64,000 nt of DNA from Massilia arenae (GTDB lineage Bacteria; Pseudomonadota; Gammaproteobacteria; Burkholderiales; Burkholderiaceae_D). The notes below the pieces were generated by a model. The model ran no database searches. It worked only from the letters and a program-made list of their open reading frames with translations, and was not told the origin of the DNA. The stretch spans positions 1,006 to 65,005 of the forward strand of contig NZ_VPFD01000029.1 of assembly GCF_008014745.1 (NCBI RefSeq), given 5' to 3'. Below are positions 42,591-51,334 of this stretch, piece by piece; the stretch's first letter is position 1; each line of letters starts with the position of its first letter. The position numbers were made by a program, and so were the translations under genes.

Positions 42591-42810
42591 TGCGTTTCTA
42601 TTCCTGGAGTCAATGACGGAGCGACAGTATACGCGTTAGCGGGGATCGGCACTGTCGATTGCCGGGCAACCGTCATTGTGCACCGCGCCACCCCTCACAC
42701 CGCATACGAATCCGCATCCATTTGCGCGGGGGCGACGTTGTTGTCAATACATGCCAAATCCCGGCATTGTGTTTACTGAACTGCAACTCCCCCAACCCGA
42801 AAGGATCGCC

Positions 42811-43431
42811 ATGAAACACGCTTTTGCACTGGTCGTACTTGCCTGTACCTTACTTACACCCGCCCAAGCCGCTGTCGTCCATACCTCGTCCGCCGCCTTC
42901 CTGCCGCAAGTGGGGGGAGGCGCCTACACCGAAACTTTTGACACCGCCCTCTCGAACGCGCCACGCGCGCTCGACTACGCGCAAGGCGATTTCGCCTATA
43001 CGGTCTTTGCCGGACGAGGCCTGTTCGGGAACGGCGACTTCCTGGGCACCTCGACTACCGCCAGTTCGCTGACCATCTCGTTCACGGGCGCCGACGTCAC
43101 CGCCTTCGGCGCCAATTTCTACAACACCGGTGTCGACCTGGCCTTCCGTGCGGCCGAGATCATCATCGCGCTCAGCGACGGCACGATCACGCGCTTCACA
43201 CCCAGCTCGGTCGAGGACAGTTACCGCGGCTTCACCTCGGACGTCGCCATTGCCTCCGTCACCCTCAGCAGCACGGACCTGCTCGATTTCGCCAGCCTCG
43301 ACAACCTGACGGTCGGCGCCTGGATCGGCGAAGCCCCGGGCGAAGTGCCCGAGCCGGCCAGCCTGGGTCTGATCGGAATCGGCCTGGCCGGTCTGCTGGG
43401 CCAACGCCGCCGCGCATCGTCGGCCAATTAG
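42811..43431 (+). CDS. PEP-CTERM secreted protein, copy 1
   Basis: 206 residues: signal peptide (about 1-20), a beta-rich domain, and a C-terminal sorting signal VPEPASLGLIGIGLAGLL followed by GQRRR, recognised by an exosortase (EpsH type, not in this window). AAGG precedes the start. The mature N-terminus VVHTSSAAFLPQVGGGAY closely matches the next gene. Confidence 0.88.
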   Translation: MKHAFALVVLACTLLTPAQAAVVHTSSAAFLPQVGGGAYTETFDTALSNAPRALDYAQGDFAYTVFAGRGLFGNGDFLGTSTTASSLTISFTGADVTAFGANFYNTGVDLAFRAAEIIIALSDGTITRFTPSSVEDSYRGFTSDVAIASVTLSSTDLLDFASLDNLTVGAWIGEAPGEVPEPASLGLIGIGLAGLLGQRRRASSAN

Positions 43432-43659
43432 ACGGAAATAACCTGGCGCAAGTTACACGGGCCCCGCTTCCGGCAGAAGCGCGGTCCAAGACAGGCGTCG
43501 GGAAATCTTACATTGTCGAGAAAACGGCGAGGCGACGGCCAGGCAGGTCGTCTATCTTGATCTAAATCATTGTTCTTTAACAAATCTCGCGATCGGGCAC
43601 AGGGCTTGCTTAGCAATATCCGTCGCAAACACATAACCACGATAACGAAGGGATTTGTC

Positions 43660-44277
43660 ATGAAACAGCTACTCGCACTGCTCACCGTCTCCGCCTCGAT
43701 GTTCGCCGCCCCTAGCCACGCCGCAGTGGTCTACACCTCAGCCGCCGACTTCCTGCCGCAAGTCGCCGCCGGCGCCTATACTGAAACCTTCAGCTCCCCT
43801 GATTTCAGCATCCCACCGACGATAAATTTTGCAGGCGGCGCTTATTCATACACCGCCTCCGCCCCTGACGGCGTATGGCTGAGCGGGAGTTTCCTGGGCA
43901 CTTACAGATCCACCAACGCACTCGCCATCACGTTTACCGGTGCAACCGTGACTGCCATCGGCGGCAATTTCTTCAACTCCAGCAACGCCGATGAGTTCCT
44001 CAGCACCATGATCACCATCGCCCTTAGCGACGGCACCAACACCTCGTTGTCACCACTGTCGCTGGCGGACAGCTACCGCGGCTTCACGAGCCTGGTCGGC
44101 ATCGCCTCGATCACCCTGACCGCCGCAACCGGCCTCAATTTCGCCTCGGTCGACAATCTGACGATCGGCACCGCCATCGACGAGCTTCCTGTCGACGTGC
44201 CGGAACCGGCCAGCATCGCCCTGCTGGGTGCGGGCCTGCTGGGTGTCGGCGCCCTGCGTCGTCGTCGCCAGTCTTGA
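43660..44277 (+). CDS. PEP-CTERM secreted protein, copy 2
   Basis: 205 residues, paralogue of the preceding gene: signal peptide to about residue 22, mature start VVYTSAADFLPQVAAGAY, middle motif DSYRGFTS shared by both copies, and C-terminal VPEPASIALLGAGLLGVG with RRRR. Third-position GC is lower than in copy 1, so it is probably an older or separately acquired duplicate. A 228-bp spacer with its own AT-rich upstream region suggests independent transcription. Confidence 0.88.
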   Translation: MKQLLALLTVSASMFAAPSHAAVVYTSAADFLPQVAAGAYTETFSSPDFSIPPTINFAGGAYSYTASAPDGVWLSGSFLGTYRSTNALAITFTGATVTAIGGNFFNSSNADEFLSTMITIALSDGTNTSLSPLSLADSYRGFTSLVGIASITLTAATGLNFASVDNLTIGTAIDELPVDVPEPASIALLGAGLLGVGALRRRRQS

Positions 44278-44278
44278 A

Positions 44279-45250
44279 CTAGCGCTCGCGCAAGAGCTTG
44301 AACTGCCGGGCCTGGCGGTGATGGCCGGCGACCGACTGCTTGATGTAGCGGGTGAGCGCGTCGCCGGTGAGCGAAAACGGATACAGGCCGGCCCGGGCCC
44401 GCTTTTCGGCGAATTCCGGGCTGGCCTCCATATTGTCGAAAGCCTGCACCCAGCGCCGGTAGTCGGCCTCGCGCACGTCCGGCCCCATCCACACGCCGCG
44501 GATCACGGGCCAGACCACGTCGTAGCCCTGTTCGCGCGCGGTCTTCACATTTGCCAGCGCACCCGGTAGCCGCTGTTCGGACAGTACCGCCAGCACCCTC
44601 ACCTTGCCACCACCCGTGTACAGCAAGGCTTCGGAGGTGTCGCCCGACACCGCCTGCACATGGTTTTCCTGCATCGCGATGAACTGCTCGCCGCCGCCCT
44701 CGAGGGCGACGAAGCGCATCTTGCGCGGGTCGATGCCGGCCATTTGCGCCAGCAGCGCCATCTTGATCCAGTCCTGGCTGCCGACCGTGCCCGACATGCC
44801 GATCAAGACTTTTTTAGGATCGCGCTTCAGGGCGTTCAACAGATCGTCGAGCGACTGCCAGGGCGAATCGGCGCGCACCGCGATCATGCCGTAGTCGGCG
44901 CCGAAGGCCGCCACCCAGCGCACGTCGTCGACGTCGGCGTCGCCGAATTTGCCCAGCGCGAGATTCAGTACCGAACCGCCGGAAAACGTGACCAGGGTAT
45001 TGGCTTCGGCGCGGCGCTGCGACACGATGGTGTGCCAGGCCACCGCGCCCACCCCGCCCGGCAGGTAGCTCAGTTGCAGCTCGGGCGCGCCTGGCTGCCC
45101 GTGCAGGGCTTTCTGGGCCAGCTTGCAGGTCAGGTCCATGCCGCCGCCGGGCTTGGACGGGATCAGGCATTCCGCCCCGCGCGGCTGGGCGCCGCCGGGC
45201 GCGGCCAGCGCCAGGCCCAGGATGGCGAGGAAGGTGTGCACGAATCTCAT
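44279..45250 (-). CDS. Bug/TctC-family tripartite tricarboxylate-type binding protein
   Basis: 323 residues with a signal peptide (about 1-21, GGAQ). The TctC fold is recognised by CLIPSKPGGGMDLTCKL, YLPGGVGAVAWHTI, WVAAFGADYGMIAVRADSPW and IGMSGTVGSQDWIKMA. Such proteins bind citrate or related carboxylates either for a TctAB transporter or as extracytoplasmic sensors for TctE-type kinases. No tctA or tctB is here, so a sensing role for the adjacent TctDE-like system is attractive. It lies 43 bp downstream of the porin gene. Confidence 0.87.
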   Translation of the reverse strand: MRFVHTFLAILGLALAAPGGAQPRGAECLIPSKPGGGMDLTCKLAQKALHGQPGAPELQLSYLPGGVGAVAWHTIVSQRRAEANTLVTFSGGSVLNLALGKFGDADVDDVRWVAAFGADYGMIAVRADSPWQSLDDLLNALKRDPKKVLIGMSGTVGSQDWIKMALLAQMAGIDPRKMRFVALEGGGEQFIAMQENHVQAVSGDTSEALLYTGGGKVRVLAVLSEQRLPGALANVKTAREQGYDVVWPVIRGVWMGPDVREADYRRWVQAFDNMEASPEFAEKRARAGLYPFSLTGDALTRYIKQSVAGHHRQARQFKLLRER

Positions 45251-45293
45251 GGGACGCATGATAGCGCCATGCCGGCCGCGGTGCCGGTCCGGC

Positions 45294-46355
45294 TCAGAAA
45301 CGATGCTGCATGCCGGCGCTGACGCCGCTCTGGGTCGTGCCGAATCCGGGGTCGTCGCGCGACAGGCCGACGAGCTGGCCATGGTCGGCTTTCGCGTGCG
45401 CCACCGACAGATAAAGGTCGGTGCGCTTGGACAGCGCCAGCATGCCGCGCACGACGAACATCGTCGGGTCGGCATCCTCGAGGGCTGGCACGTCCTTCGT
45501 GTTCACGTGATAGACGGCGCCGGTCAGGGTCACGCTGTCGATCGTGCGCGAGATGCCACCCCAATACGTGTCGGCGCGCAGGTCGGCGCCGGCGCGGGCC
45601 GCGTCGAGCTTATAGCCGCGCATGCCGGCGGTGTAGCGCCACTTGCCTGTTCGATAATCCGCGCCAAGGTGGTAGGCGCGGGTTTCGTCGCGCGCCGGCA
45701 GGCCGGCTACCGCATTGCCGTTGATCTGCTCATACGAGGCCATCAGCCCGAGGCCGCTATCGCCGAACCACGAGCCGCCCACCGCCAGCTTGCGGCCCTC
45801 GGCCAGGCTCCCCGAGCGCTCGCCCAGGCCGACCGTGGCCCCATAGGTGAAGCCGCCGCTTTTTCCCGTGTACTTGACCAGGTTGTCGAACTGGGTCGTC
45901 ATGCCGTACTTCGACGGCCCGGTGGCGCTGGCGCCGGTGGCCCAGGAATAATTGGGGGCGAAGCCCAGCGGATCGAACTTGATCACCAGCTCGTAGGTGG
46001 TGGTGAACGAGCGGCCGATGACGATGCGCCCGAGCGAACCGTCCAGGCCGACCCAGGCCTGGCGCTTGAACACGGCGCCGTCGCTTTCGCCGGTATCCAT
46101 CAGGATGCCGCCTTCGAGCTGCCAGATCGCCTTCAGGCCGCCGCCCAGGTCTTCGCTGCCGCGAAAGCCCCAGCGCGAGGTGTTCTTGCCACCCGAGATG
46201 ACGCGCACCATGTTTCCGCTGTTTTCGCTGGGATGGTTGACGTACTCGACGCCGGCATCGATCAGGCCATAGACCTGTACATTGCTCTGGGCGTGGACGG
46301 AATGGTTCAGGGAAAGCGCTGCCAGGACGGCGAGCGCGAGGGCCGACTGCTTCAT
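45294..46355 (-). CDS. Gram-negative porin (Porin_4 family)
   Basis: 353 residues: signal peptide (about 1-22, VHA|Q), 16-strand beta barrel pattern starting SNVQVYGLIDAGVEYV, loop 3-like region, and the C-terminal MQHRF with terminal Phe used by the BAM complex. A ribosome site GGAGA precedes ATG. It is divergent from the response regulator gene and shares an operator with the symporter gene citM, pointing to citrate-linked outer-membrane uptake. Confidence 0.92.
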   Translation of the reverse strand: MKQSALALAVLAALSLNHSVHAQSNVQVYGLIDAGVEYVNHPSENSGNMVRVISGGKNTSRWGFRGSEDLGGGLKAIWQLEGGILMDTGESDGAVFKRQAWVGLDGSLGRIVIGRSFTTTYELVIKFDPLGFAPNYSWATGASATGPSKYGMTTQFDNLVKYTGKSGGFTYGATVGLGERSGSLAEGRKLAVGGSWFGDSGLGLMASYEQINGNAVAGLPARDETRAYHLGADYRTGKWRYTAGMRGYKLDAARAGADLRADTYWGGISRTIDSVTLTGAVYHVNTKDVPALEDADPTMFVVRGMLALSKRTDLYLSVAHAKADHGQLVGLSRDDPGFGTTQSGVSAGMQHRF

Positions 46356-46398
46356 GGTGTCTCCGAATCTTGTTATGGTTGTGCTGCTTTATCGCTCG

Positions 46399-46432
46399 AC
46401 TATATGCGGCGCCAGCTTTCAGTTTGCTTTCA
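46399..46432 (-). promoter_or_regulatory. Operator and -10 of the porin promoter
   Basis: Read on the minus strand: TGAAAGC-AAAC-TGAAAGC (46432 to 46415), 10 bp, TATAGT (46404 to 46399), then 43 bp to the porin ATG. Direct heptamers with 11-bp phase are the typical binding pattern of OmpR-family regulators, and the position over the -35 region fits activation. The same arrangement precedes citM. Confidence 0.75.
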
Positions 46433-46478
46433 ACAGCTGCCCTTTCCACGGCCCCGCCATTGCGCTTACACTGACGCG

Positions 46479-47165
46479 ATGAGAATCCTGCTAGTTGAAG
46501 ACCACGTCGAGCTGTCGCACTGGGTGTCGAAGGCGCTGCGCGACGCCCATCTGACCGTCGAATGCGCGAGCACCGGCGCCGATGCCGACGCCCTGCTGCA
46601 CACCCAGGACTACGCGCTGGTGATCCTGGACCTGACCCTGCCGCGCATGGATGGCCTGGACGTGCTGCGCCGCCTGCGCGCCCGCGGCGGTGCACGCGGC
46701 GGCACGCCGGTGCTGATCCTGACCGCGCGCGGCGGCCTGGAAGACAAGGTGCAGGGCCTGAACCTGGGCGCCGACGACTACCTGGCCAAACCGTTCGAAC
46801 TGGCCGAACTCGAAGCGCGCGTCAAAGCGCTGCTGCGCCGGCGCAGCGGCAACGAGGCGCTGGTGCACCGCTGCGGCCAGCTCGCCTTCGACACGGTCTC
46901 GCGCATGTTTTCCTATTGCGGCGAGCCATTGGCGCTGACGCCGCGCGAGCACGCGGTGCTCGAAGCGCTGATCGCCAGGCCAGGCCGCGCGCTGTCGAAG
47001 GAAAAGCTGTTCCAGGAAGTGTTCGCCCTGAGCGACGACGCCAACCTCGACGCCATCGAGCTGTACATCCACCGCATTCGCAAGAAGCTCGAGCGCCCGG
47101 GGGGCGACGCCGCCATCGTCACCCTGCGCGGCATCGGCTACCTGATGCAAGAAAAGCCCGCCTGA
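46479..47165 (+). CDS. tctD: Response regulator, TctD-like (OmpR family)
   Basis: 228 residues: receiver domain with ED (7-8), Asp51 (VILDLTLPR) and Lys104 (AKPFEL), and a winged-helix DNA-binding domain (about 125-225, LDAIELYIHRIRKKLE). In homologous systems TctD activates tricarboxylate uptake genes. It lies 47 bp from the TGAAAGC operator shared with the divergent porin and 4 bp before its kinase gene. Confidence 0.87.
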   Translation: MRILLVEDHVELSHWVSKALRDAHLTVECASTGADADALLHTQDYALVILDLTLPRMDGLDVLRRLRARGGARGGTPVLILTARGGLEDKVQGLNLGADDYLAKPFELAELEARVKALLRRRSGNEALVHRCGQLAFDTVSRMFSYCGEPLALTPREHAVLEALIARPGRALSKEKLFQEVFALSDDANLDAIELYIHRIRKKLERPGGDAAIVTLRGIGYLMQEKPA

Positions 47166-47169
47166 GGCC

Positions 47170-48621
47170 ATGGCTCAGCGCATCTCCCTGCTGCAACGCG
47201 CCGCGGCCCGGCCGCTCGGCAGCCTGCGCCAGCAGCTGCTGCGCTGGCTGATCCTGCCGCTGGTGGCGCTGGTCGCACTGAATGCCGTGTCGCTGTACCG
47301 CGACGCGCTGGAGGCGGCCGACGTGGCCTATGACCGTTCGCTGCTGTCGTCCACGCGTGCACTGGCCGAGCGCGTCACGGTCAGGGACGGCAAGGTGGTC
47401 GCCAACGTGCCTTATGTGGCGCTGGACAGTTTCGAGACCGATACCCTGGGCCGCATCTACTACAAGGTCACCGGCCTGGATGGCGAGACCGTCAGCGGCT
47501 ACGGCGACCTGCCGCCGGTGCCGTCCGACGTGCCGCGCAGCGACCTGTATCCGGCCCTCGTGCGCTTCTACCACGCCAGCTATAACGGCGAGCCGGTACG
47601 CATCGCGGCCCTGCTGCAGCCGGTCTACGACGATTCGATGCGCGGCATCGCCCTGATCCAGGTTGGCGAGACGCTCGACGCGAGGAATGCCCTGTCGCGC
47701 GACATCCTGCTCAACACCCTGTGGCGCCAGGCACTGCTGGTGCTGGCGGTGGCGGCGCTGGTGTGGTTTGCGGTGCGCCTGGTGCTGCGGCCGCTGATGC
47801 GGCTCAAGAACGAGGTCGAGACGCGCCCGCTGTCCGACCTGTCGACCATCGACCAGGCCCTGGTGCACAAGGAGGTGCGGCCGCTGGTGGCGGCCATGAA
47901 CGGCACCATGGCGCGCATGCAGGACCTGATCGCCAGCCAGCGCCGCTTCATCGCCGACGCCTCGCATCAACTGCGCACCCCGCTCGCGGTGCTCAAGACC
48001 CAGGCCGCGCTGGCCCTTCGCGAAAACGATCCGGCGGCGATGCGCGCCATCGTGAGTTCGATCGCCGGCACCACCGACTCGGCCATCCACCTGGCCAACC
48101 GCCTGCTGGTGCTGGCGCGCATCGAGCATGGCGGCGGCGGAGAGCAAGTGCAGCCGGTAGCGCTAGCGGCCATTGCGCGCCAGGTGGGCCTGGAGCTGGC
48201 CCTGCCGGCGGTGCAGAAGAGCCTCGACCTGGCGCTCGAAGCACAGGCCGACGCCGACACCATGGTCGTCGGCCGGGAACTGCTGCTGCACGAACTGGTG
48301 GCGAACCTGGTCGACAACGCGATCCGCTACACGCCGGCTGGCGGCAGCGTGCTGCTGTGGGTTGGGCGGCGCGACGACCGAGTCGTGCTGGCGGTGAGCG
48401 ACAGCGGCCCGGGCATCGTCGAGGCCGAGATCGACAAGGTGGTGATGCCCTTCTACCGCGCCCAGTCCACGCTGGAAGCCAATCCCGGCGGCACCGGCCT
48501 CGGATTGGCGATCGTGCGCGACGTCGCCAGCCTGCACGGCGCCACCCTGGCGCTCGGACGCTCGGACGCTGGCGGCCTGAAAGTCGAGGTGATCTTCGAT
48601 GTGCCGCGCGCTGAAAGCTGA
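47170..48621 (+). CDS. tctE: Sensor histidine kinase, TctE-like
   Basis: 483 residues: membrane helix at about 25-43, a periplasmic TctE-type (2CSK_N) sensor domain at about 45-180, second helix (185-205), HAMP-like linker, HisKA with His266 in IADASHQLRTPL, N-box DNAIRYTP, DSGPGI and GTGLGLAI. Phospho-donor to the preceding regulator. The 3' end contains half of the operator that drives citM. Confidence 0.89.
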   Translation: MAQRISLLQRAAARPLGSLRQQLLRWLILPLVALVALNAVSLYRDALEAADVAYDRSLLSSTRALAERVTVRDGKVVANVPYVALDSFETDTLGRIYYKVTGLDGETVSGYGDLPPVPSDVPRSDLYPALVRFYHASYNGEPVRIAALLQPVYDDSMRGIALIQVGETLDARNALSRDILLNTLWRQALLVLAVAALVWFAVRLVLRPLMRLKNEVETRPLSDLSTIDQALVHKEVRPLVAAMNGTMARMQDLIASQRRFIADASHQLRTPLAVLKTQAALALRENDPAAMRAIVSSIAGTTDSAIHLANRLLVLARIEHGGGGEQVQPVALAAIARQVGLELALPAVQKSLDLALEAQADADTMVVGRELLLHELVANLVDNAIRYTPAGGSVLLWVGRRDDRVVLAVSDSGPGIVEAEIDKVVMPFYRAQSTLEANPGGTGLGLAIVRDVASLHGATLALGRSDAGGLKVEVIFDVPRAES

Positions 48622-48645
48622 TTGAAAGCTTGCGCGGCCTATAGT
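48612..48645 (+). promoter_or_regulatory. Operator and -10 of the citM promoter
   Basis: TGAAAGC (48612-48618), TGAT, TGAAAGC (48623-48629), 10 bp, TATAGT (48640-48645). It has the same half-sites, spacing and -10 as the porin promoter and overlaps the last codons of the kinase gene. Predicted target of the TctD-like regulator. Confidence 0.75.
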
Positions 48646-48692
48646 TGGCGAAAACGGGGCAGAGCCCCATTACGACAACGATCGGAGACATC

Positions 48693-48758
48693 ATGAAGCA
48701 GCCTGCTTTCGCGCGCGCCGTCCTGGCCACGCCATCCCTTATCCCCCGCGGAGCATGA
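48693..48758 (+). pseudogene. Porin signal-peptide remnant forming a 21-codon leader ORF before citM
   Basis: ATG at 48693 follows CGGAGACATC, the same ribosome site context as the porin gene (CGGAGACACC). The first 35 nucleotides match the first 35 of the porin coding sequence at 30 positions: MKQPAFARAVLA against MKQSALALAVLA. The frame ends at TGA 48756-48758, one base before the citM ATG at 48760. It may be a dead fragment or a translated leader coupling ribosomes into citM. Confidence 0.65.
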
Positions 48759-48759
48759 C

Positions 48760-50283
48760 ATGCTGACCATCCTCGCCTATTCGATGATCATCGTCTTCAT
48801 GTTCCTGATCATGACCAAGCGCCTGCCAGCGCTGGTCGCGCTGATCGTCGTGCCGATCGCCTTCGGCCTGATCGGCGGCTTCGGCGCCGGCCTCGGCCCG
48901 ATGATGCTGGACGGGATCCGCTCGCTGGCCCCCACTGGCGTCATGCTGATGTTCGCCATCCTGTATTTCGGCGTCATGATCGACGCCGGCCTGTTCGATC
49001 CGGTCGTGCGCATCATCCTGAAACTGGTGCAGGGCGACCCGATGAAGATCGTGGTCGGCACCGCGGCGCTGGCGATGTTCATCTCGCTCGACGGCGACGG
49101 CGCCACCACCTATATGATCACGGTGTCGGCCATGCTGCCGCTGTACATGCGCCTGGGGATGAGCCGCCTGGTGATGGCCTGCGTCATCATGCTGGCCGGC
49201 GGCGTCTTCAATATCCTGCCGTGGGGCGGCCCGACGGCGCGCGCCGCCACCGCGCTGGGCGTGGACGTGAGCGACATCTTCGTGCCGATGATCCCGGCGA
49301 TGGCCGTGACCGCCGTGTGGGTGTTGTTCGTCGCCTATATGCTGGGCATGAAGGAGCGCAAGCGCCTGGGCACCGTAAGCCTGCCGGGCCAGGCCAGGGC
49401 CGAGGTCAGGAAAGCGGCGCCAGCGCCCGTCCTGCAGCCGGCTTTCAATGAACTTGCCGTCGCCGGCAGCATGAACGGCACCACCGGCCAATGGAGCGCC
49501 GCCCCGGCCGCCGCCGCGCGCGAAGGCAATGTGCATGCATTCGCCGCTGGCCGCATCGAGGCCGATGCCGGCGCAGTGGGTGGCTCGGGCGGCTCGGGCA
49601 ATTCGGGCGGTGGCGACGAGCCGCCGGTCGGCGTGTCCTCGCCCGACACCGCACGTCCCAAGCTGATCTGGGTGAATTTCCTGTTGACCGTGGCGCTGCT
49701 GGTGCTGCTGGTGCTGGGCGCCCTGCCGCTGCCGGTGCTGTTCATGATCTTCTTCGCGATCGCCATCACCGTGAACTATCCGGGCCTGGAGGCGCAGAAG
49801 GCGCGCATCGAGGCGCATGCGGCCAATGTGCTGCCGGTGGTGTCGCTGATCTTCGCTGCCGGCATCTTCGTCGGCATCCTGCAGGGCACGAAAATGGTCG
49901 ACGCCATCGCCCTGAGCGTAATCGCAGCGGTGCCGGACTGGATGGGGCCTTATATGGCGATCGTCACCGGCCTGCTGAGCATCCCGTTCACCTTCTTCAT
50001 CTCGAACGACGCCTTCTATTTCGGCGTGGTGCCGGTGCTGGCCAAGGCGGCCGAGGTGTATGGCATCACGGCGGCTGAGATCGGCCGCGCCTCGGTGATC
50101 GGCCAGCCGGTCCACCTGCTCAGCCCGCTGGTCGCTTCGACTTACCTGCTGGTCGGCATGTGCAAGGTCGAATTCGGCGACCATCAGCGCTACACCCTGA
50201 TCTGGTCGATCTCGGCCTCACTGGTGATGCTGGTGGCCGCTGTCATCTTTGGCGTGGTGCCGCTGATGGGATCAGGAGCCTGA
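48760..50283 (+). CDS. CitMHS-family citrate:proton/metal symporter
   Basis: 507 residues, about twelve membrane segments in two halves. FAILYFGVMIDAGLFDP, SLDGDGATTYMITVSA, GGVFNILPWGGPTARAA and FTFFISNDAFYFGVVPVLAKAA are landmarks of CitM/CitH citrate transporters, which import metal-citrate complexes with protons. The central cytoplasmic loop (about residues 205-305) is expanded with Ala/Gly-rich sequence (GGSGGSGNSGGG). Start at ATG 48760, directly after the leader ORF stop. Confidence 0.9.
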   Translation: MLTILAYSMIIVFMFLIMTKRLPALVALIVVPIAFGLIGGFGAGLGPMMLDGIRSLAPTGVMLMFAILYFGVMIDAGLFDPVVRIILKLVQGDPMKIVVGTAALAMFISLDGDGATTYMITVSAMLPLYMRLGMSRLVMACVIMLAGGVFNILPWGGPTARAATALGVDVSDIFVPMIPAMAVTAVWVLFVAYMLGMKERKRLGTVSLPGQARAEVRKAAPAPVLQPAFNELAVAGSMNGTTGQWSAAPAAAAREGNVHAFAAGRIEADAGAVGGSGGSGNSGGGDEPPVGVSSPDTARPKLIWVNFLLTVALLVLLVLGALPLPVLFMIFFAIAITVNYPGLEAQKARIEAHAANVLPVVSLIFAAGIFVGILQGTKMVDAIALSVIAAVPDWMGPYMAIVTGLLSIPFTFFISNDAFYFGVVPVLAKAAEVYGITAAEIGRASVIGQPVHLLSPLVASTYLLVGMCKVEFGDHQRYTLIWSISASLVMLVAAVIFGVVPLMGSGA

Positions 50284-50417
50284 TGTCATTTTCTGAAATG
50301 GATGCGATGGCGACTGTGCCCGGCCAGGTTATAGCCATTGCAGCCTCGAAACAGGGGCGAAGCTCTTGCACGCATTAGTTGCGATATAGTTAGCGAAATG
50401 AATCCCCTACTCTCAAT

Positions 50418-50654
50418 CTAGTACGTGCGCGTTCCGCGTTGAGCAAGGGCCTGATACAAAGCATCCTTGTGCACTTTCGGGACGATCCAGTTTTTGTAGG
50501 TCCAGTTGAAAGTTGTTCCCGCGAAAGACGAACAAACGGCTTTCACGCTGTTGTTGACCGTGATTTGGCAGGTCACAGCCACATCACCGCTGGGAAGGTC
50601 GGAGGTTTGTACTGCGCCTTCCTTCTCGCCCTCACGCAAGATAAAAATGGCCAT
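50418..50654 (-). CDS. Unknown 78-residue protein, third gene of the mazEF operon
   Basis: Begins MAIFILREGEKEGA and is preceded by AAGGA; the frame could extend to 50729 but that part overlaps mazF. It has beta-strand-like alternation (VAVTCQITVNNSVKAVC), no membrane segment and no motif that I recognise. It starts 10 bp after the mazF stop on the same strand, so cotranscription is likely. It could be an accessory modulator of the toxin or an unrelated passenger. Confidence 0.6.
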   Translation of the reverse strand: MAIFILREGEKEGAVQTSDLPSGDVAVTCQITVNNSVKAVCSSFAGTTFNWTYKNWIVPKVHKDALYQALAQRGTRTY

Positions 50655-50664
50655 TTCGTTTTCC

Positions 50665-51015
50665 TTATTCGACAATGGCCCGCAACCGGGCAAGTGCGTC
50701 CTCGACCACAAATTCAGGTGCAGTCTCAATTTTCTTTGCCCCTCGAGCTGCCAAGTCCATCGTCCGAATCATGTTTACCAGCGCGACGCCTTGAGTCTCC
50801 GTACCGGATCCGCTCAATGGCACTGCAAAGCCTGCATAGCGCGCCAAATCGCCACCTTGGGTAATTGGGGCCACCAACGCCACCCCCATGAGATTGAACG
50901 CGGCCGGCGAAAGGACAAGGGCGGGACGAAAGTCGCCTTGCTGCTCTCGTCCAACAGTTGGGTTGAGGCATACGCGGACGATATCCCCACGGTTGAACGT
51001 GGTACGCCTCACCAT
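50665..51015 (-). CDS. MazF/PemK-family endoribonuclease toxin
   Basis: 116 residues of the PemK/MazF fold: RGDIVRVCLNPTVGREQQG near the N-terminus and FRPALVLSPAAFN, the region with the catalytic Arg and the substrate loop. Members cleave mRNA at short sequence motifs. Start overlaps the antitoxin stop by 7 bp. Base composition is clearly lower in GC than the flanking citM and spermidine-synthase-like genes, suggesting acquisition. Confidence 0.88.
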   Translation of the reverse strand: MVRRTTFNRGDIVRVCLNPTVGREQQGDFRPALVLSPAAFNLMGVALVAPITQGGDLARYAGFAVPLSGSGTETQGVALVNMIRTMDLAARGAKKIETAPEFVVEDALARLRAIVE

Positions 51016-51260
51016 ACTTCGTGACCTACCGGTTTGCTACGCTCCCAGGCCTCAGCGTCCACAGGAGGCGCCGCCTTCAAATCACATTGCGCCATTAGAT
51101 CAGCGAGAGAATAGGATTTGCGGGCAGGCCGCAACACCAGCCCTTCCGGTTTCATATCAGCGCTCAGCCTGTCGCCAAGTGCAACGCCTAATTGGCTCAA
51201 CAAAGTTGACGGCAGTCGGACAGCCGCGCTATTACCCCATTTTTGAATCGCGAGTTCCAT
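51009..51260 (-). CDS. MazE/AbrB-type antitoxin
   Basis: 83 residues. The N-terminal 45 residues (IQKWGNSAAVRLPSTLLSQL, GDRLSADM) form a swapped-hairpin AbrB DNA-binding domain; the C-terminal part (YSLADLMAQCD) should wrap the toxin. GGAGGT precedes the ATG at 51260. It overlaps its own palindromic operator's operon promoter region just upstream. Confidence 0.88.
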   Translation of the reverse strand: MELAIQKWGNSAAVRLPSTLLSQLGVALGDRLSADMKPEGLVLRPARKSYSLADLMAQCDLKAAPPVDAEAWERSKPVGHEVW

Positions 51261-51271
51261 GATTACACCTC

Positions 51272-51334
51272 CAATGTAGATACATTGTATTACCGAAAAT
51301 CTGCTGCGACAAGAGAATTCTACAATGTAGATAC
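51272..51334 (-). promoter_or_regulatory. mazEF promoter with palindromic operators
   Basis: Minus strand -35 TTGTCG (51312-51307), 17 bp, -10 TACAAT (51289-51284). The -10 is embedded in the palindrome CAATGTA-GA-TACATTG (51272-51287); a second half-conserved copy, CAATGTAGATAC, lies at 51323-51334. This is the layout expected for autorepression by a MazE-MazF complex. Confidence 0.7.

Follow-up and report, generated by a model that had tools for sequence, protein, structure and literature searches.

The citrate:proton symporter gene of Massilia arenae, citM, is preceded by a control and start region homologous to the front of a porin gene whose promoter lies 2.2 kb away. Our preferred reading, to which as a whole we assign a probability of roughly 0.7, is that this region holds an old and decayed copy of a porin front, that citM had an operator before the copy arose, and that the remnant is now the leader of citM. 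Part of the porin promoter, the porin leader and a length of coding sequence (51 codons in the best-kept relative) would have been copied to a place before citM; citM would already have had its operator, and porin and citM would have been joint targets prior to the copying. The route of that copying is something we infer, and two candidates for it are weighed below.

The window, by which we mean the whole 64,000-nucleotide stretch of DNA that was analysed, presents tctC and the porin gene on the minus strand, followed on the plus strand by the genes for a TctD-type regulator, a sensor kinase and CitM (Table 1). The kinase is called TctE-like on the strength of its N-terminal domain and the neighbouring gene, its best NCBIfam model being QseC at 175.5 bits, far under the cut-off of 475; for the regulator the best NCBIfam model is TctD, at 276.7 bits and under the cut-off of 337. 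The citM operator overlaps the end of tctE (the codons for AES, then the stop at 48619-48621; overlap 48612-48621). Within CitM, a Gly/Ala-rich segment (window 49390-49640, residues ~210-290) lies between the parts matched in Cupriavidus and Pseudomonas relatives, and several genomes carry elsewhere a distant second CitM relative of ~45-50% (L051, L052 and others; G010, G060 C1, G045, G051 and G032). Inspection of the flanks by eye adds two adjacent similar ORFs with PEP-CTERM-like ends (42676-44277) and, on the minus strand at 50665-51300, a PemK/MazF-type toxin-like ORF with a MazE-like antitoxin.

Table 1. Features of the citM region (window coordinates) and, in the last line, the chimeric gene of M. 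niastensis.
Feature	Position	Strand	Remarks
TctC-type periplasmic receptor	44279..45259	-	TctC 1.1e-16; start picked by eye
Porin, family from which the remnant derives	45294..46355	-	Porin_4 8.8e-45
Porin operator TGAAAGC-AAAC-TGAAAGC	46415..46432	-	TATAGT at 46404-46399
TctD-type response regulator	46479..47165	+	Response_reg, Trans_reg_C
TctE-like sensor kinase	47170..48621	+	2CSK_N, HisKA, HATPase_c domains
citM operator TGAAAGC-TGAT-TGAAAGC	48612..48629	+	direct repeat, 11-bp period
citM -10 element TATAGT	48640..48645	+	10 bp after operator
Small hairpin GGGG-CAGAG-CCCC	48656..48668	+	near expected mRNA 5' end; by eye and predicted
Shine-Dalgarno GGAGAC	48684..48689	+	porin-leader type
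Porin 5' remnant, 21-codon leader ORF MKQPAFARAVLATPSLIPRGA	48693..48758	+	48693-48744 align without gap to porin start
citM Shine-Dalgarno GGAG	48750..48753	+	within leader ORF
citM, citrate:proton symporter, CitMHS family	48760..50283	+	Pfam CitMHS 7.4e-33; TIGR00784 5.5e-180, above cut-off
M. niastensis chimera: porin-type operator, leader and signal-peptide start + tctC-type receptor	L194:6820-7575 (C94)		contig ends within gene

The earlier note had described the elements of the porin promoter as recurring upstream of citM in the same order and spacing, and this description holds: from operator through -10 element, 28 of 34 bases are equal between citM and the porin (46432-46399, minus strand), and the order is the same. 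Both leaders end in CGGAGACA[T/C]C-ATG, the remainder (47 and 43 nt) being weakly alike, with 58 of 2956 random pairs scoring as high. The likeness then runs on into the coding starts, which, counted from the A of the ATG, agree without a gap at 30 of 35, 31 of 38 and 41 of 52 positions; the 30 matches in 35 reported earlier stand on that count, and become 28 when the 35 bases are taken past the ATG. Among the 1772 ATGs of the window, the best apart from those of the porin and the citM remnant reaches 24 of 38. Alignment of the two regions, which had been proposed as a check, gives a local score of 61 over the whole stretch against a maximum of 27 in 1971 random window pairs, and taken singly the operator-to--10 part and the coding part are equalled by 0 of 2960 and 0 of 2970 random pairs, respectively. 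The homology of the citM 5' region to the porin front is thus far above chance. A search of the whole genome with the citM control region returns the porin promoter as its single good match (E 5.9e-15; the next has E 0.034), and the operator followed by TATANT at 8-12 bp occurs at exactly two sites in the genome. The same genome-wide search yields no other signal peptide that matches the remnant better, and another signal peptide is accordingly rejected as its source.

Relatives of citM were found in 23 of 62 genomes of the genus at E <= 0.001, and 18 of these, including G000, have the close form; with Pseudoduganella umbonata and P. buxea they supply the 20 citM leaders compared here. A leader ORF, defined by the pattern GGAG, spacer and ATG before citM, is present in 16 of the 20, the four leaders without one being those of G003, G034, G022 and G043; in G003 a porin-type CGGAGACA immediately precedes the citM ATG. 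When the 16 ORFs are scored against porin codons 2-22, 12 outscore all 200 mononucleotide shuffles and all 200 codon shuffles; in one control G050 and G004 are each beaten by 2 of 200 and G005 by 1 of 200, and the P. buxea ORF, beaten by 9 of 200, is doubtful as a remnant.

The best-preserved remnant is that of M. niastensis (G017), whose first 40 bases are identical to the porin of the same genome and are followed by an inserted T, a premature stop and some short deletions, the alignment extending to porin nt 154 (51 codons). Against the whole porin as target, the part past nt 60 scores 35.5 (shuffle maximum 28) and the part past nt 90 scores 27.0, within its shuffles (maximum 31.5); against porin fronts as target, the parts beginning at nt 60, 75, 90 and 105 each beat 300 of 300 shuffles. 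The G050 leader aligns over its full length to the M. niastensis remnant and scores 74.5, a value to be compared with a maximum of 28.5 among 50 shuffles; the G049 leader matches more weakly, 37 against 25.5. In the window's clade, ~52 nt of porin coding sequence are left. Two marks of a 5' pseudogene are present in both species. One is porin homology past the regulatory part (52 nt in the window, 154 nt in M. niastensis); the other is a broken frame or lost body, the window having no more than a 21-codon ORF and M. niastensis a shifted frame that soon runs into a stop. Comparison of these leaders supports reading the citM 5' region in Massilia-type bacteria as what is left of the front of a second porin gene.

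The copy is old. When presence of the remnant is mapped on a 30-row citM tree it takes 3 changes, as low a number as is reached in 0 of 500 shuffles, and three changes would match one gain and two losses; the remnant-bearing citM clade has support of 90/95, below the tree program's star, with its inner order unresolved. In none of the 15 genomes that have both units is the genome's own porin the porin nearest to its citM unit (ranks 2-19 of 28), which argues for an old copy and leads us to reject recent duplication or ongoing conversion. For 13 of 16 citM units the nearest match among porins and other citM units is a citM unit; for the exceptions, G004, G020 and M. niastensis, it is a porin, and on the unit tree, which is weakly supported, the M. 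niastensis unit falls outside the other citM units. A counterpoint comes from the same species, as past nt 60 no porin is closer to its remnant than the one in its own genome. Most likely, we infer, the copy arose once, in the ancestor of one Massilia clade, and was later shortened.

How much of a porin was copied is a separate question, and the odds between a whole gene and a partial copy as the source are about even. On the first account, which was the proposal of the earlier note, a whole second porin preceded citM and was then deleted down to its front; on the second, recombination or gene conversion between the like operators moved the porin leader and first codons, and a whole porin was never there. 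Each by itself falls somewhat short of an even chance. A survey of relatives bears on both. We find no second porin behind tctE in any of 56 tctD-tctE loci, comprising the window, 14 loci of the genus, P. umbonata, 11 loci of the genus without citM at that place, M. niastensis, 8 further loci of the genus and 20 from outside it, the last a selection from 185 regulator-bearing genomes outside the genus (219 of 392 genomes overall have the regulator). The stretches examined behind tctE measure ~2.5 to 10 kb, and in M. niastensis 0.8 kb to the contig end. This result speaks against a whole gene, and not against a partial copy. What is demonstrated of a second porin before citM is consequently its 5' part, ~51 codons; of the earlier claim, the remnant (154 nt in M. 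niastensis) is supported, and the whole gene is a candidate. Of the two outcomes that the earlier note had named jointly as refuting it, the survey gave one, as no relative with a whole porin was found, but the search of this genome did not give the other, a better-matching signal peptide.

The far end of the porin is likewise established in no citM leader, the best 3'-end match having z 2.7 (G005). Matches to the porin middle occur in M. aurea-type citM leaders, with z 3.9-4.5 in three of four genomes and 1.8 in the fourth, and are tentatively taken for chance; z in both tests runs somewhat too high because the shuffles used every second porin. That no 3' end is established argues for partial copying, and so does the presence of the operator at citM already outside the clade. 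On the other hand, the M. niastensis remnant is 154 nt deep, well past promoter and leader, and that its 51 codons are broken by a frameshift, a stop and deletions counts in favour of a whole gene, the rest of which could have been lost by deletions.

Two further observations concern porins in other settings. Behind tctE, M. niastensis has a further copy of the porin front, which continues in frame into a tctC-type gene (its product begins MKKSAPALAVLAALSLNKSTKAQNRIHG..., and a second signal-like stretch follows), as if the front moves alone, which again favours partial copying. G032 and G045 carry second porins of the same subfamily (L245:2924-3982 and L246:2934-3995; 68% and 65% against the porin of the window), which have no operator and adjoin other transport genes, of ABC and MFS type to judge by eye. 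Such close paralogs beside transport genes lend some weight to a whole second porin before citM.

Porin mRNAs are often RNA-regulated close to their start, and the shared codons might accordingly persist because one small regulatory RNA acts on both porin and citM. We consider this very improbable and reject it, as synonymous conservation of porin codons 1-20 is not in excess (0.73, as compared with 0.76 and 0.72 in two later parts of the gene), the remnant decays in relatives, and an Rfam search of 46000-50500 gives no match. Very improbable, too, is the proposition that porin and citM share an operator and like start signals only, the codon match being due to chance or signal-peptide composition: the operator does precede citM elsewhere without codon homology, but the genome has no further signal peptide that matches, the leader ORFs of 12 of 16 relatives outscore every shuffle, and the M. 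niastensis match goes past the signal peptide.

To return to the old copy before an already controlled citM, the distribution of the operator is what separates the age of the control from that of the remnant. Of the 62 genomes of the genus, 27 have the operator with TATAGT at fixed spacing, at 45 sites in all, and the reversed control pattern has 0 sites; 27 of the 45 sites precede a porin, 17 precede citM and 1 the chimeric tctC. Beyond the clade, four loci have the operator ahead of a remnant-free citM: L064, L067, L082 (Duganella type) and L083 (Noviherbaspirillum humi). The -10 element is TAAAGT in L067 and TATAGT in the other three. Genus g80 contributes nine citM loci, one of which (L278) is of the P. 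buxea type; seven of the eight others have the repeat (L277 and L280-L285), six with TATAGT, and L279 has a degenerate form only. Since L280 and L285 are by sequence L064 and L067, nine distinct remnant-free operator genomes remain. Porin-front homology was not detected in the g80 loci L278-L285 (L278 included), where the scores lie under the shuffle maximum in 8 of 8. Looser forms of the repeat are seen by eye before citM in N. malthae, P. namucuonensis, Root418 and one MAG, and two Cupriavidus loci have no repeat before citM. Near citM outside the clade we find no tctD or tctE relatives (E <= 1e-8), in 8 loci over 16-18 kb, in 9 over 4.5 kb and in one over 12.5 kb.

The operator at citM therefore appears, on comparative grounds, to be older than the porin remnant, and because it stands outside the clade without one, citM was most likely a target before the porin front arrived. 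The earlier suggestion that the porin put the symporter under porin-type control is not supported by an operator that precedes remnant-free citM, with no tctD-tctE nearby; citM probably does not owe its control by the operator to the porin.

Within the window, porin and citM look like joint targets of the neighbouring TctD-like regulator. Activators of the OmpR/PhoB type bind direct repeats of 11-bp period that replace the -35 box. Here, too, TGAAAGC-N4-TGAAAGC ends 10 bp before TATAGT at both promoters, the half-site having a sequence of its own, and a scan finds no -35/-10 pair. The TctD-like regulator, the likely binder by analogy with the Pseudomonas system, would occupy the 11-bp direct repeat where a -35 box is otherwise expected, and may activate porin and citM when the kinase senses a tricarboxylate. 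In Pseudomonas aeruginosa, TctD is described as controlling its own gene and opdH-tctCBA (PMC4513871), and citrate as inducing the porin promoter via TctED (PMC4513871, PMC10865840). As those reports present the system (PMC4513871, PMC10865840), a TctD-type regulator and sensor kinase adjoin a porin just as they do here; at the Massilia locus, in contrast to opdH-tctCBA, a CitMHS carrier lies behind the kinase, the porin is of the Porin_4 type, the leader of the carrier is a decayed porin-front copy and the binding of the regulator is predicted. At the level of titles and abstracts, we found no literature on this locus in Massilia.

What the remnant now supplies to citM is a leader, a ribosome site and a start codon. 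The stop of the leader ORF (TGA, 48756-48758) ends one base upstream of the citM ATG, a consequence of the short distance between remnant and citM in the window's clade; the arrangement is found in 5 of 5 genomes of that clade, a similar overlap occurs in G004, and it is absent in the other 10 of 16. In G059 the frame of the leader ORF is maintained across a 12-nt insertion. Of known bacterial types, translationally coupled leader ORFs come closest, having likewise a short-ORF stop that adjoins the downstream start and a ribosome site that lies inside the ORF; the present ORF differs in its descent from the 5' part of a different gene and in a peptide that is hardly conserved. In the window's clade, the short ORF would be translated from the ribosome site and ATG of the remnant up to one base before citM, an anatomy that makes coupling of citM translation to it probable.

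Fold prediction added no support for coupling. In 3 of 5 genomes the predicted fold buries the citM ribosome site no more notably than it does when citM codons are recoded, and a special fold hiding that site is rejected. The small hairpin near the expected mRNA 5' end is found only in the window's close clade, as GGGG/CCCC in four genomes and GAGG/CCTC in G011.

Conservation along the 16 leaders, expressed as mean pairwise identity, is 0.96 in the -10 element, 0.51 in the spacer before it, 0.58 in the leader, 0.56 in codons 2-5 and 0.74 in codons 6-14. The GGAGAC is identical in all 16, although the start signal is biased towards conservation, as the leaders were selected by the pattern GGAG...ATG. 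Pooled pN and pS of the leader peptide, in 4 of 5 clade genomes, are 0.154 and 0.226, so by this measure the peptide is weakly constrained, and the leader ORF is not essential, given that 4 of 20 citM leaders have none.

A bolder extension, which we offer tentatively and regard as rather unlikely, is that the dead porin front has become a working translation module: selection would keep its ribosome site and start codon, the leader peptide being a disposable product whose synthesis couples or primes that of the transporter, and the front would have been used twice, at citM and in the tctC-type fusion of M. niastensis. A mobile cassette of promoter, leader and start would explain both the citM remnant and that fusion. 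The case also carries a caution, in that a shared promoter together with shared codons need not mean that control arrived with the copy. For the bacteria concerned, it provides a species-by-species graded series in which the front of one gene is reduced to the leader of another, beside an operator that is apparently older, and with it the retention of a pseudogene start as a translation signal becomes testable.
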